Of a DNA stretch of 64,000 nt, positions 13,726 through 19,254 are shown in pieces. The translations under genes were made by a program, and so were the position numbers. Location: contig NZ_JAFIQT010000003.1 in NCBI RefSeq assembly GCF_017355935.1, positions 441,450 to 505,449 on the forward strand, in the 5' to 3' direction. The notes beneath the pieces are model-generated. The model was not told where the DNA came from. It did no database searches and saw nothing but the letters and a program-made list of their open reading frames with translations. Source of the DNA: Telluribacter humicola. GTDB taxonomy: Bacteria > Bacteroidota > Bacteroidia > Cytophagales > Spirosomataceae. How positions within the stretch are numbered: the stretch's first letter is position 1; each line of letters starts with the position of its first letter.

Positions 13726-14490
13726 CTAAAACCCAATCGAATTACCCCCATCCACCGGTAGCGATACACCCGTAATAAACGAGGCGGCTTCGGAGGACAG
13801 AAACACAGCCGCCAGACCGATGTCTTTGGGAGCGCCCAACCGCGCCATCGGTGTACGGCTCATGGCCCTCCGCAGGCGGTCCGGGTCATCACCCATGGCT
13901 TTCAGGAACATAGGGGTTTCGATGAAGCCGGGAGCGATGGCGTTGATACGGACATTATGCGGCGAAAATTCCGATGCCAGTATCTTAATCATGCCTTCCA
14001 AAGCCGTCTTAGAAGCTCCGTAAGCAGCCACCCTATCTATACCGTAGTAGGCGGCCATGGAGGAGATCATCAGAATAGAGCCGCTGCGACGAGCGATCAT
14101 GCTCCGGGCGCACTCCCGGGTCAGCGAAAATACGGCGTTGAGGTTGGTCATCAGGATGCGGTCAAACTCCTCATCCGTTACGTCCAGCGCCGGTTTCTTC
14201 ATATTAATACCGGCATTATTAATCAGTATGTCAATGGGCCCCCAAGTACTCTCGATATGCTGCACCAGGGCCGGGAGCTTCGCCCGATCTGTTACGTCAT
14301 TGACTACGTAGTGAGCCCGTTCGCCCAGGGTACTTACGGCTTCTTTGAGCATTTCTTCACGGCGACCCGTTATGACCACCCGGGCTCCGGCATCAACCAG
14401 GCATTGGGTAGTAGCCAGTCCGATGCCGGTACCTCCTCCGGTTACGAGGGCTAGTTTTCCTTCTAATGAAAAAGATTGTGTTGTATTCAC
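13726..14490 (-). CDS. SDR oxidoreductase, probable D-mannonate oxidoreductase (UxuB-like)
   Basis: A 254-residue short-chain dehydrogenase. The open frame runs upstream into the 3' end of the preceding gene, but family similarity starts at NTTQSFSLEGKLALVTGG. The only fitting start is GTG at 14490, 19 bp after the preceding stop codon. Motifs: TGGGTGIG nucleotide loop, NNAG, catalytic Ser in ISSMAA, and Y-x3-K in YGASK. In several bacteria the NADH-dependent reduction of fructuronate to mannonate is done by an SDR-type UxuB, as in Bacillus YjmF. Because this gene follows a UxuA-containing gene, that is the most likely role here. A generic sugar-acid dehydrogenase cannot be excluded. Confidence 0.75.
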   Translation of the reverse strand: MNTTQSFSLEGKLALVTGGGTGIGLATTQCLVDAGARVVITGRREEMLKEAVSTLGERAHYVVNDVTDRAKLPALVQHIESTWGPIDILINNAGINMKKPALDVTDEEFDRILMTNLNAVFSLTRECARSMIARRSGSILMISSMAAYYGIDRVAAYGASKTALEGMIKILASEFSPHNVRINAIAPGFIETPMFLKAMGDDPDRLRRAMSRTPMARLGAPKDIGLAAVFLSSEAASFITGVSLPVDGGNSIGF

Positions 14491-14509
14491 AGCTTGTATT
14501 TTCTGGTTA

Positions 14510-17500
14510 TTAACGTAATTGATAAATCCGCACCAGCTCTTTAATCTCCTCCAGCGTGCGGTCGGGCTTGGGCAAATCGTCGGGTATGGGTCGCTTCGAA
14601 TACGTCTGGAAGTACAGCACGCAGGCATCGCGCCACCACTCGGCCTCCCGCTTCTGGATCTGCAGACGACTGGCTACGTCGGCGTGTAATTCGGGGTCTA
14701 CGGAGCCCTTCACGCTGTCCCACTGCCGGATCATCTGCTCCACGGAGTTGACCCCGCCGTAGTAGCGGTAGCAGAGTTCCTCCCACAGGGTACGTCCGTT
14801 GTCCATCTTATACGACCAGGATACATGGTGGAACCAAAGCAGGTACTTTTCCGGCGTATTTTCCAGTACCCCCCACTGCTGCTGCAACTCTGGAGCGTAC
14901 TGCGAAAGGGCGTTGGAGCCGGTTTTGGTACGGTCGAAACCGATACCCTGCGCATCAGCGCGGTGGTAGTAGAGGGAGGTCCAGTCGGGGCGCTGGCTCT
15001 TTTCGAGCCAGGGCTGCGGCCCGTAGTGAATACTTTCGCCCATGATGTGGTGCAGGCCCAGGGGCGTCATGTAGTTGACCGCCGCCTCGCGTGATTCCAT
15101 AAAAATACTCTTAATGGTAGCCACCGCCTGCGGCTGGCGGGTGAGCGTCATCTTTATCCACTCTTCAGCAATCTGCTCCGACGACAGCGTGTGGTCCCAG
15201 GCCAAGCGACCATAAGCGTACCAATTGGCCTGCCCCACGGGATGCCCGGTCCAGTTGCGGTCGGAGCCAATGTTGGACACGCCCGCCATGCCGGTACGGG
15301 TATAGCCGTGCAGGCTGCCATCTACTACCTCCGCTACCGTTGAGCCGGGGCCTTTGACGTAGGTATCGCTGTCGAGCGTTTCTTTGAAGAGCGGTGCTTC
15401 GTACACCAGGTGCGTCGCGAAGCCCAGGTACTCCTGCGTGAGCTGAAACTCCATCATCAGAGGCGTCTGCGGCATCTGTCCGAACAGCGGGCTGAATGGC
15501 TCGCGCGGCTGGAAATCAATGGGGCCGTTCTTGACCTGGACCAGTACCTTCGGGTCAAACTGTCCGTCGAAAGGCTTGAACTCCTCGTAGCCTGCCTTGT
15601 AGCGGTCGCCGTTAGGGTCAGCTTTGTACACGAAAGCCCGCCACATCACAATTCCATCGTAGGGAGCCATCGCCTTAGCCAGCATGTTGGCACCATCGAC
15701 GTGGGTCCGGTTGTAGTCTTGCGGACCGGGCTCGCCCTCGGAATTGGCTTTTACCACAAACCCACCGAAGTCCGGAATAATGGAATAAATCTCTTTCACC
15801 TTCTCGTTCCACCACTGCTGTACGGCCGGGTCCAGCGGGTCGGCGGTGGAGAGGCCACCCACGTTGCGCGGCGCCGTGAAGCGTACTGACAGGTACACCC
15901 GGATACCGTAGGGACGGAATACATCAGCCAGAGCCTTTACTTTGTGCAGGTACTCCGCCGTCATGAAGCGGGCACTGGCGTTTACGTTATTGACTACCGT
16001 GGCGTTGATCCCAATGGAAGCATTAGCGCGGGCGTATTCCTTGTAACGGGGGTCAATCACCTGCGGCAGGTCGTACCATTTCCAGATGGATGAGCCGGCG
16101 TAGCCCCGCTCCACGGTACCGTTGGGGTTGTCCCAGTGGTTGAGTACGCGGTACTGTACCTTGGGGCTGGTAGTGATATTTAGCTCCGACAGCGGACGCA
16201 GGGTCTGCAGGTGACGTAAAAGCCCGAAGCTCCCGTACAGGAGCCCCTTTTCGGTTTTGGCGGCTATGATAGTTTGGTTGCCTTTGCGGTAGATATGGTA
16301 CCCCTCCTGCCCTACTTGTTCCTGCGCATTGAGTTGAAGAACTACATCGCCTTTGCCCGAAGCCTGCTTTTGCACAGGTACTTTAGTACCCAGCAGCCCC
16401 TGTAGGCCCGTCTGTAACTCCTCCACGGCCACTTGCCGCATGGGTGAGCTTTCGGTGTTGACGATGGCGGTAAAAGCAGTAGCGTAGGCCCGCTGCAAGG
16501 CCGCGCCCTGAATCCGGTCGTATTTAAGCCAGAGGCGGTAGCCGTCGTCGGCGCGGGTACTTCCTCCTACTAATACAGAGACTAGCAGGAGTACCAGCGC
16601 CAGTGAGCGACGAATAGCCAGCTCCATACCCCGTAGTTCGGCCAGACCTTTAAGACGACCAATGGCCGAATAGCCGGGGTAGGTCCTTTTGTGGAGGTCG
16701 TCCAGCATCTGGTGACCGTGGTCGGGGCGCATAGGTAGCGCGCTGTCGGGACGACCGGCCTGCTGCCGGCGCTGCTGTTCGAGAACTAGTTCTTTCATAA
16801 CACTATACATATCGACATCGCCAGTCAAGTGGTCGGCTTCGTGAAAATTACGTGGTTCGTCGGCATCGCGCTTGGTAGAACGCAGATGCACAAAGTGAAT
16901 CCGGCCCCCCAGCCGCTGCACCATACCCGGCAGATCGTTGTCGGCCCGTACCCCCAGCGAGCCGGTACAGAAGGTAATGCCGTTGGCCCGGACGGGGCAG
17001 GCATCCATCAGCGCCTGCAGATCGGCTTCGGTACTTACCACGCGGGGCAGTCCCAGCAGCGGACGCGGCGGATCATCGGGGTGGATGCACAGCCGTACGC
17101 CCAATTCTTCGGCAAGAGGTGCTACCTGTTGTACGAAGTAGTGCAGATTGGCCCGTAGTGCATCGGCATCTATATCTTTATAGGTATCCAGCAGGGACTG
17201 AAAGGTAGCCAACTCAAAGGCTTCTTCTGAGCCCGGCAACCCCAGCAGTACCGTTGCGGTCAGGGCCCGCAGTTCCTCCTCACCCATGGACTCAAACCGC
17301 CGCCTGGCCCGCTCGATGGTATCGGCATCGTAGTCCTGCTCAGCGCCGGGACGCTTCAGGATATGGAGGTCAAAGGCCACAAACTTCTCCCACTCGAAGC
17401 GAAGGGTACGGGCGCCGTTGGGCAGCTGATATACTACATCCGTCCGCGACCAATCCAGCACTGGCATGAAGTTGTAGCATACTACCTCTATCCCACAGGC

Positions 17501-17800
17501 CGCCAGGTTTCGCAGCGACTGCTTATAGTTGTCTATGAGGGTTTCGCGCGAAGGCAGTCCCTTTTTGATGTCCTCGTGGACGGGCAGGCTCTCCACCACC
17601 AGCCAACGCAGCGGCGTTACTCCCTCCGGAGCCTGTTCAATCAGTTGCTGGCGCTCCCTGATGGCCTCCACCGACCATACCTCTCCAACAGGTAGCTGAT
17701 GCAGGGCTGATACTACCCCTTCACAGCCTGCCTGACGTATATCATTCAGTGATACCGGGTCGTTAGGTCCGAACCAACGCATTGTTTGTATGAAAGGCAT
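14510..17800 (-). CDS. Fused mannonate dehydratase (UxuA) and GH67 alpha-glucuronidase
   Basis: A single open frame of 1096 residues with two complete enzymes. Residues 1 to about 398 are UxuA, which dehydrates D-mannonate to 2-keto-3-deoxygluconate in the cytosol. Marks are [12 protein letters not shown] at the N terminus, the metal-site segment [16 protein letters not shown] (C238, H240), HLRSTKRD, and the terminal [12 protein letters not shown] and [16 protein letters not shown]. Residues from about 418 on are a GH67 alpha-glucuronidase, which releases (4-O-methyl)glucuronate from xylo-oligosaccharides. Marks are [19 protein letters not shown] and the WRAFVYK strand. Each half has the normal length of its stand-alone family. 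Residues 392-417 read as a signal peptide at the join, with an in-frame ATG at 16627. The product may be a membrane-spanning fusion, two proteins from two starts, or a sequence error at the join. The uxuB-like SDR follows after 19 bp, and a divergent LacI regulator lies upstream. Confidence 0.85.
16550..16627 (-). other. Internal signal-peptide segment and alternative start inside the UxuA-GH67 gene
   Basis: Residues 392-417 begin with Met (codon 16627-16625), carry Arg-Arg at 397-398, a hydrophobic core [13 protein letters not shown], and end STRA before DDG, a normal signal peptidase I site. The first few residues also complete the end of UxuA ([11 protein letters not shown]). Translation from this ATG would yield a 705-residue secreted GH67 enzyme, the usual size. 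Whether the ATG is used cannot be seen from sequence. Confidence 0.6.
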
Positions 17801-17936: not shown

Positions 17937-17976
17937 TAGCTATCGGTATCGTTTTCGAAAACGATACCGATAGCTA
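17937..17976. promoter_or_regulatory. Perfect 40-bp palindrome, likely LacI-type operator
   Basis: The left arm 17937-17956 (TAGCTATCGGTATCGTTTTC) is exactly complementary to the right arm 17957-17976, with no loop, centred on TTCGAA. It lies in the 302-bp region between the divergent UxuA-GH67 gene and the LacI-type regulator. It ends 12 bp before a TAnnTTTG box that reads toward the regulator, so bound protein would block that promoter. LacI-family operators are palindromes with a central CG, as here. The 40-bp length suggests two overlapping sites or a tetramer. Nothing else was seen in this intergenic region. Confidence 0.7.
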
Positions 17977-18102: not shown

Positions 18103-19254
18103 ATGATAGAATGTGTAAAGTGCGGCCAAGTAGATGCCATCAAGAGGGCGGGCTTTGTCCGGGGAAAGCAGCGGTTCTACTGCCGGCACTGTAGCTACCA
18201 TTTTGTAGTGGCCGAACCGACTCCCGCCAAACCAGTCAAGCGACAGGCTACCATTATGGACATTGCCCGGCAGCTGGGTATCTCGCCTTCAACGGTGTCG
18301 CGAGCCCTACTCAACCGCTACGGCATCAACGAGCGGACCCGGGCGGAGATACTACGCGTGGCGCAGGAGCTGGACTACCAGCCCAACCTGCTGGCCCAGA
18401 GCCTTAGCAACAGCGAAACCCATACCATTGGAGTGATCATTCCTGATATCGAGAGGCCCTTCTTCGCCTCGGTGGTTAGCGGCATTCAGCAGGTAGCGTC
18501 GGCGTCGGGCTACCGGGTCATGGTGTGCCAGTCCAACGAATCGCACCAGATGGAGGTGGCTAACGTACAGGCGCTGGTAGCCAGCCGGGTGGATGGTTTG
18601 CTAATCTGCCACTCCACCGAAACTACCTTGTTTGACCACATCCGGCTGCCGCACCGCAAGGGGCTGCCCATCGTCCACTTCGACCGGATTTGTGATAATA
18701 TAGATACGTCCAAGGTAGTGCAGGATGATTTCGGTGGGGGCGCCGCTATCGCCGGACACCTGCATCAGCAGGGCTGTCGGCAATTAGCCGTCTTTGCCGG
18801 TCCACCAGACCTTTTGATCAGCAAAAGACGGCTGGAAGGCTTCCTGAGTACCCTGGCGGATCAGGGTATAGCAGCGGATGGGGTACGGGTAGTACACAGC
18901 CATTTCAAACCCGACGAGGCACTCTATACCCTGCGGGAGTGGCTGCAAAGCCCTGCCCCACCCGACGGGATTTTCTGCGTCCACTACGGCAATGCTATTG
19001 ATATGATGCTGGACCTGAAGCAGCGGGGTGTACGTATCCCGGAGGAGATAGCCATAGCGGGCTTTGGTGAAGACAGGCTGGCCGCTGTCATAGAGCCGGG
19101 CCTCACTACCATCCATCAGCATCCGTTCCAGATCGGGCGCCAGGCGGCACTCCTGTTCCTTAACCAGATCATGGCGCCAGAAAGCTTCGTACCCGCTACC
19201 CATCAGGTAAAGGGCGAGCTGATTGTGCGTCAATCTACCCTTCGGCGAGTCTGA
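18103..19254 (+). CDS. LacI-family regulator with N-terminal InsA-like zinc ribbon
   Basis: A 383-residue protein. Residues 1-36 form a Cys4 ribbon (C4-x2-C7 and C27-x2-C30, with the pattern IKRAGFVRGKQRFYC) closely like the zinc ribbon of the IS1 protein InsA and related transposases. A short Pro/Lys linker leads to a LacI helix-turn-helix (about residues 49-100: ATIMDIARQLGISPSTVSRA) with the hinge region YQPNLLAQSLSNS. The periplasmic-binding-protein-like effector domain runs from about 108 to the end. Ordinary LacI proteins are 330-350 residues and start at the helix-turn-helix, so the extra 45 residues are the novelty. Only ATG 18103 gives the ribbon, and it is well formed, so the extension is probably real. 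Its divergence from the glucuronate genes points to uronate-responsive control of them and of itself. Confidence 0.85.
   Translation: MIECVKCGQVDAIKRAGFVRGKQRFYCRHCSYHFVVAEPTPAKPVKRQATIMDIARQLGISPSTVSRALLNRYGINERTRAEILRVAQELDYQPNLLAQSLSNSETHTIGVIIPDIERPFFASVVSGIQQVASASGYRVMVCQSNESHQMEVANVQALVASRVDGLLICHSTETTLFDHIRLPHRKGLPIVHFDRICDNIDTSKVVQDDFGGGAAIAGHLHQQGCRQLAVFAGPPDLLISKRRLEGFLSTLADQGIAADGVRVVHSHFKPDEALYTLREWLQSPAPPDGIFCVHYGNAIDMMLDLKQRGVRIPEEIAIAGFGEDRLAAVIEPGLTTIHQHPFQIGRQAALLFLNQIMAPESFVPATHQVKGELIVRQSTLRRV

Follow-up and report, generated by a model that had tools for sequence, protein, structure and literature searches.

The window analysed here, a stretch of 64,000 nucleotides from Telluribacter humicola, contains on its minus strand a single open reading frame of 1096 codons (14510..17800) that begins with ATG and has its sole stop codon at the end. 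Profile searches and structure alignments divide this frame into a mannonate dehydratase (UxuA), a short junction and a GH67 alpha-glucuronidase. The frame, its parts and its neighbors are as follows:

14510..17800, minus strand: fused open reading frame of 1096 residues, UxuA, putative internal signal peptide and GH67 (open reading frame with Pfam and TIGRFAM profiles)
16607..17800, minus strand: UxuA (mannonate dehydratase) part, residues 1-398 (profiles and structure alignment)
16550..16627, minus strand: junction, residues 392-417, with the UxuA C-terminus MELAIRRSL as putative n-region, a hydrophobic core at about 16562-16600 and a c-region ending in T-R-A
16625..16627, minus strand: in-frame ATG at residue 392, candidate internal start, not conserved beyond Telluribacter
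14513..16549, minus strand: predicted mature GH67 alpha-glucuronidase, residues 418-1096 (Pfam and structure alignment)
13726..14628, minus strand: SDR oxidoreductase downstream, probable operon partner, whose true start probably lies later than that of the listed frame
17937..17976, no strand: perfect palindrome of 40 bases (2 x 20) in the interval that separates the fused gene from the divergent LacI gene
18103..19254, plus strand: divergent LacI-family regulator with an N-terminal IS1-like zinc ribbon

Both enzymes, UxuA (ManD) and GH67, are complete within the fused frame. The Pfam profile UxuA (PF03786) matches residues 5-397 with 419 bits over profile positions 3-351 of 352, and the model TIGR00695 (uxuA) gives 539 bits, its cut-off being 199.55, with positions 3-390 of 394 covered. 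In the second half, the Pfam domains GH67N (423-526, 61 bits), GH67M (532-850, 503 bits) and GH67C (851-1074, 314 bits) follow each other, all above their cut-offs. Structure 4eac, which we take to be UxuA from E. coli, matches the first half near its full length (query residues 5-398), and structure 1gqi, presumably a GH67 enzyme from Cellvibrio, does the same for the second half with an E-value of 1e-239. The claim of a first-pass annotation that one stop-free frame joins a complete UxuA to a complete GH67 is thus borne out by the open frame and its profile matches. Moreover, both halves look catalytically intact: His240, Cys278, His305 and Asp360 of UxuA, which align to 4eac and which we assume to be the metal ligands, are invariant in all 15 aligned fused proteins, as are Glu688, Asp762 and Glu784 of GH67. 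Glu688 aligns with a position at which 1gqi and 1h41 are unlike, the latter having alanine; we take this position to be the catalytic acid, and Asp762 and Glu784 to be the Asp/Glu pair of the active site. AlphaFold modeling of the 15 fused proteins yielded a poor model (mean pLDDT 61, pTM 0.39) that is uninformative on the junction.

The neighborhood of the fused gene recurs in part. In addition to the window, 12 fused loci were annotated; an SDR gene lies downstream in nine of them (in one with an intervening gene) and a LacI-family regulator lies upstream on the opposite strand in six; the window locus has both. The same SDR follows in all three annotated loci with separate genes (order uxuA-aguA-SDR) and in seven of eight uxuA loci devoid of a neighboring GH67 gene, the SDR being judged by sequence in the latter, and from this context a role as fructuronate reductase can be inferred. 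In Aquirufa and Sandaracinomonas, the SDR is adjoined by an MFS transporter that is nearest to the galactonate-transporter subfamily, below the cut-off of that subfamily. The 40-base palindrome is probably an operator of the LacI type; its core occurs once in the window, and the exact 16-base core occurs in seven of the 233 loci examined, only in Telluribacter (G000 or G001). The zinc ribbon of the LacI-family regulator resembles IS1/InsA and scores just below the cut-off of NCBIfam NF050000. LacI homologues of about 382 residues adjoin the fused gene in Telluribacter, Pseudarcicella, Arundinibacter and Siphonobacter, and similar CPKC..HCKSCDYHF ends are found beside unfused uxuA in Aquirufa-genus genomes. 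The genome of the window carries another, unfused uxuA (C11:128787-129965) beside uxaC (L234, C11:127316-128707); consequently, UxuA is present in two copies, of which the fused one belongs to the GH67 operon.

Distribution of the fused frame

Within the family of environmental bacteria to which the window belongs, the junction region was used as query against 222 genomes and the frames were then read; among the matches listed, 22 genomes of 10 genera carry the fusion. In 20 of these the frame is complete; the other two (L083 and L053, in genomes G112 and G129) are ended by contig ends and were scored as fused from the junction alone. Sister species, where the first-pass annotation had proposed to look for the same fusion, do carry it: a whole-protein search of 99 genomes, that of the window included, gives among the matches listed an uninterrupted frame in the sister Telluribacter at 95% identity and likewise, at 64-71% identity, in genomes of seven other genera. 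In a named collection, 15 loci among the best 80 of 265 relatives are fused, namely those of Telluribacter sp., two Persicitalea, Pseudarcicella hirudinis, Arundinibacter roseus, Dyadobacter frigoris, D. tibetensis, Siphonobacter aquaeclarae, Aquirufa antheringensis, Sandaracinomonas limnophila and five Cytophagaceae MAGs. Within genera the distribution is patchy, with three of 48 genomes in g32 and one of six in g20 among the matches listed.

Outside the family, no uninterrupted fusion was found in 395 genomes of the class and 390 of the order, both samples also containing family members. Two non-family matches of the class scan spanned the junction position: G088 turned out on reading to have separate genes, and G597 has two stops inside the match. 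Among 482 plasmid records with a match, none covers 80% of the query. In 21 genomes the open-frame value pointed to a fusion without a match across the join; read individually, all of them have separate genes (G029, G039, G057, G071, G088, G195, G201, G228, G190, G215, G200, G236, G237, G245, G254, G186, G217, G218, G221, G222 and G015). At the G088 locus (L086), which comes from another family, uxuA and GH67 are separate genes whose stop-to-stop frames, read in different phases, share several hundred bases. The fusion is real and conserved, so far in one family only, and a literature search covering titles and abstract openings retrieved no report of it.

The junction and its conservation

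UxuA and GH67 are joined directly, with no linker between them. Across the 42 residues around the join in the window, the UxuA C-terminus (..MELAIRRSL) runs into a hydrophobic core, followed in the fused genes by an A/V/T/L-x-A site and a mature GH67 start of DDGYRLW (DDGYHLW in G125). In 21 separate UxuA chains, typically ending in ..ERSL, ..RSLNP or ..KSLNP, 16 ends fall within five residues of the point that aligns with window residues 398-399 and the rest within 21 residues, from which it follows that the UxuA in the fusion is essentially complete. The last residues of UxuA so appear to replace the n-region and the start codon of a former GH67 signal. An overlap of the UxuA end with the start of a signal had already been proposed for this locus; it holds in the sense that the C-terminus would double as n-region.

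The segment has most features of a Sec-type signal, namely a hydrophobic core, a small residue at -1 and a small or aliphatic residue at -3, and differs in its position, which is internal (residues 392-417 of 1096) instead of N-terminal. Alanine occupies -1 in all 22 fused junctions, and -3 is Ala in seven, Leu in ten, Val in three and Thr in two; leucine, which is not the best residue for signal peptidase I, comes from ten genomes of which eight belong to one genus. The best 12-residue Kyte-Doolittle mean of the core (KD12) ranges from 2.06 to 3.38 across 21 fused junctions. Each of these 21 has a lysine or arginine among its first nine residues, the net charge being +1 in eight and 0 in 13, which is weak for an n-region. 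Stretches of the core without D, E, K, R, N, Q, H or P measure 10-17 residues in 15 fused genes and 8-18 residues in 60 separate GH67 genes, and such lengths are those of cleavable signals. Tat export as the common route was rejected, since a twin arginine (RR) occurs in only five of the 22 junctions.

Purifying selection acts on the frame, with a junction dN/dS of 0.02-0.08 in five pairs and of 0.22 in the Telluribacter pair; the corresponding values of the flanking domains are 0.02-0.06. Six relatives with a junction of equal length share only 12-35% core identity with the window and have a KD12 of at least 2.0 in every case, with no charge in the core in four of them and one charge at the core edge in two (G045, G185). 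When the window core was evolved neutrally in simulation to 20-35% identity (1000 runs per level), a KD12 of at least 1.9 was retained in 9-18% of runs, and such a value together with the lack of any charge in 3-6%.

The length of the junction, counted after the motif LAELRG in 21 fused genomes, is 26 residues in nine (six genera), 24 in two, 22 in nine (one genus) and 21 in one; in G125 it is 22 residues. A single clade of fused genes was rejected by the AU test (p 9e-7 and 2e-46) on both trees, one of GH67 with 67 rows (20 fused) and one of UxuA with 71 rows (21 fused). G129 is in neither tree and G112 in the UxuA tree only, the trees are quick ones with some long branches, and their unfused rows represent part of the family; the rows were cut with window residues 2-399 and 424-1096, a one-residue shift with no noticeable effect on the trees. 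As drawn, the trees need at least five (GH67) and at least nine (UxuA) changes of state, and branches with good support dictate three of these. That distant genera have a junction of the same length favors a single old fusion followed by splits; repeated fusion is possible. No convincing GH67 remnants were seen behind unfused uxuA in eight loci.

From one frame to two enzymes

The reading that we prefer, with a probability of roughly 0.6, is that of one polyprotein, in which UxuA would stay in the cytosol, GH67 would be exported via Sec and signal peptidase I would probably cut between them. We infer Sec export and cleavage from the hydrophobic core, the -1/-3 site and the length of the core run. 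Ribosomes would translate the entire frame and UxuA would fold in the cytosol; the internal signal, with the UxuA C-terminus as its n-region, would engage SRP/SecYEG in N-in orientation, upon which GH67 would be transferred to the periplasm. Signal peptidase I would then cut after the x-A site, thereby releasing a free GH67 with the N-terminus DDGYRLW, while UxuA would be left with a short hydrophobic tail that may be trimmed or may hold the enzyme briefly at the membrane. The outcome would be a fixed 1:1 supply of a periplasmic enzyme for debranching glucuronoxylan and a cytosolic enzyme of uronate catabolism, in many cases within one operon together with an SDR gene. The parts of this reading differ in strength: a single translation product from the fused frame is highly probable, export of GH67 is equally so on the features of the junction, and cleavage of the fused chain by signal peptidase I is likely. 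The first-pass annotation had considered a protein whose dehydratase lies inside the cell and whose glucuronidase lies outside, and of its readings this one is best supported; the probable cut is our addition.

Whether the arrangement is of any benefit is a separate matter from its mechanism. The loss of a short intergenic stretch might simply have fused two neighboring genes whose products signal peptidase still separates, with no advantage from their coupling. This neutral compaction of an operon is compatible with the polyprotein reading, and we give it an even chance. It would fit the close spacing of uxuA, aguA and the SDR gene in the three annotated loci with separate genes (G029, G039, G047), the second uxuA beside uxaC, and the patchy occurrence of fused genes, which do not form a clade; against it stands the retention of the fusion in 10 genera under strong purifying selection. 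In the textbook pathway, transport and two other enzymes precede UxuA. Because of this late position and because of the second, unfused uxuA, the earlier suggestion of a new way to couple the release of glucuronate to its catabolism is unproven.

The sequence also fits an uncut bitopic protein. The hydrophobic segment would then be kept as one transmembrane helix, a signal-anchor, in an enzyme of 1096 residues whose UxuA part lies in the cytosol and whose GH67 part lies in the periplasm. The same frame would encode it, the lysine or arginine before the core (21/21) and the acidic DD after it would suit such an anchor, and some cores are strongly hydrophobic (KD12 3.38 in the genome of the window, G000). 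However, the core runs are as short as those of separate GH67 signals, which is little for a stable membrane helix, and the alanine at -1 is kept throughout; we therefore regard an uncut anchor as unlikely. Only slightly better are the prospects of the broader notion of a stable enzyme spanning the inner membrane, be it uncut or with UxuA tail-anchored by the leftover signal, which would free (methyl)glucuronate outside and tether its later breakdown beneath.

One mRNA might also give two products. Translation from the first start would make UxuA or the full chain, and an internal start close to the join would make GH67 with a signal of its own. In the window, the ATG at codon 392 (16625-16627) would yield a product of 705 residues. 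An ATG between -30 and -17 is indeed present in nine of 22 fused genes, six of them sharing one aligned position, and TTG or GTG codons lie nearby in several others. The start is, however, conserved neither in place nor in kind: among fused genes an ATG at the position of residue 392 is confined to the two Telluribacter genomes, and the one shared by six other genes sits two codons past it in the alignment. In G185 an ATG lies at -19 and in G030 at -15. The last 45 codons hold no ATG in nine Aquirufa-genus genomes and in Arundinibacter and Siphonobacter aquaeclarae (G012 and G045), and in G117 they offer only a GTG at -13 and a TTG at -4, too late to start a signal. Separate GH67 genes behave differently, since a methionine 15-45 residues before the mature start is found in 60 of 60 separate and in six of 15 fused genes. 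This comparison of 75 motif-bearing loci draws on the best 80 of 265 relatives and leaves out five that lack the motif (L182, L191, L207, L213, L229); in L215, the nearest methionine is at 14, just outside the range. All 15 named fused genes also have a methionine of the UxuA core (QMLDD) 48-53 residues upstream of the mature start, from which a very long signal might in principle begin. As uxuA has no stop of its own, ribosomes that translate it must in any case read through. Taken with these counts, a start conserved across the whole fused set is unlikely and production from two starts quite improbable; single lineages may nevertheless use an internal start. The earlier reading of two starts on one mRNA is weakened by the same observations, and of the related proposal that the join is a signal peptide beginning with the in-frame ATG, the signal-like segment stands and the conservation of the ATG does not. 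Least of all does a stop codon lost through sequencing or assembly error, also considered at first, account for the frame: the same join in 22 genomes of 10 genera, isolates as well as MAGs, and with 26 residues in nine, excludes it.

Gene fusions usually join enzymes of the same compartment. In the polyprotein reading, selection has kept a soluble cytosolic enzyme fused in frame to one that is predicted to be exported, and the C-terminus of the former would double as the start of the export signal of the latter. The fusion tests how late an internal signal is recognized, here behind about 45 kDa of folding protein, and, if the reading is true, would be a case in which bacteria naturally employ signal peptidase to process a polyprotein. 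Annotation tools that seek N-terminal signals would miss the export of the fused GH67. Fused and split relatives occurring side by side inside one genus provide natural controls.

Relation to known systems

Multi-domain CAZymes of the CE15-GH8 type (PMC8417218) also carry two catalytic domains per chain, both of which degrade polysaccharides; the two parts of UxuA-GH67 would lie on opposite sides of the membrane. The proteins of structures 4eac and 1gqi match the two halves near full length, but each stands alone. The separate uxuA and aguA neighbors of Spirosoma and Larkinella, which belong to the same family, and of Hymenobacter share with the fusion the genes and their order, closely related enzymes, the kind of signal and the mature start, and differ in having a stop after UxuA and a methionine of its own for GH67.

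In its proposed mechanism, the fusion is closest to FbcH of Bradyrhizobium, the cytochrome b/c1 polyprotein, which is encoded by one gene and whose chain is split by an internal signal peptide and signal peptidase. In both cases, one bacterial chain would give rise to two mature proteins, the likeness on the side of UxuA-GH67 resting on sequence features. While the first part of FbcH is an integral membrane protein that belongs to the same complex as the second, UxuA-GH67 would combine a soluble cytosolic dehydratase with a periplasmic hydrolase, joined with no linker and with the C-terminus of the dehydratase itself serving as n-region.
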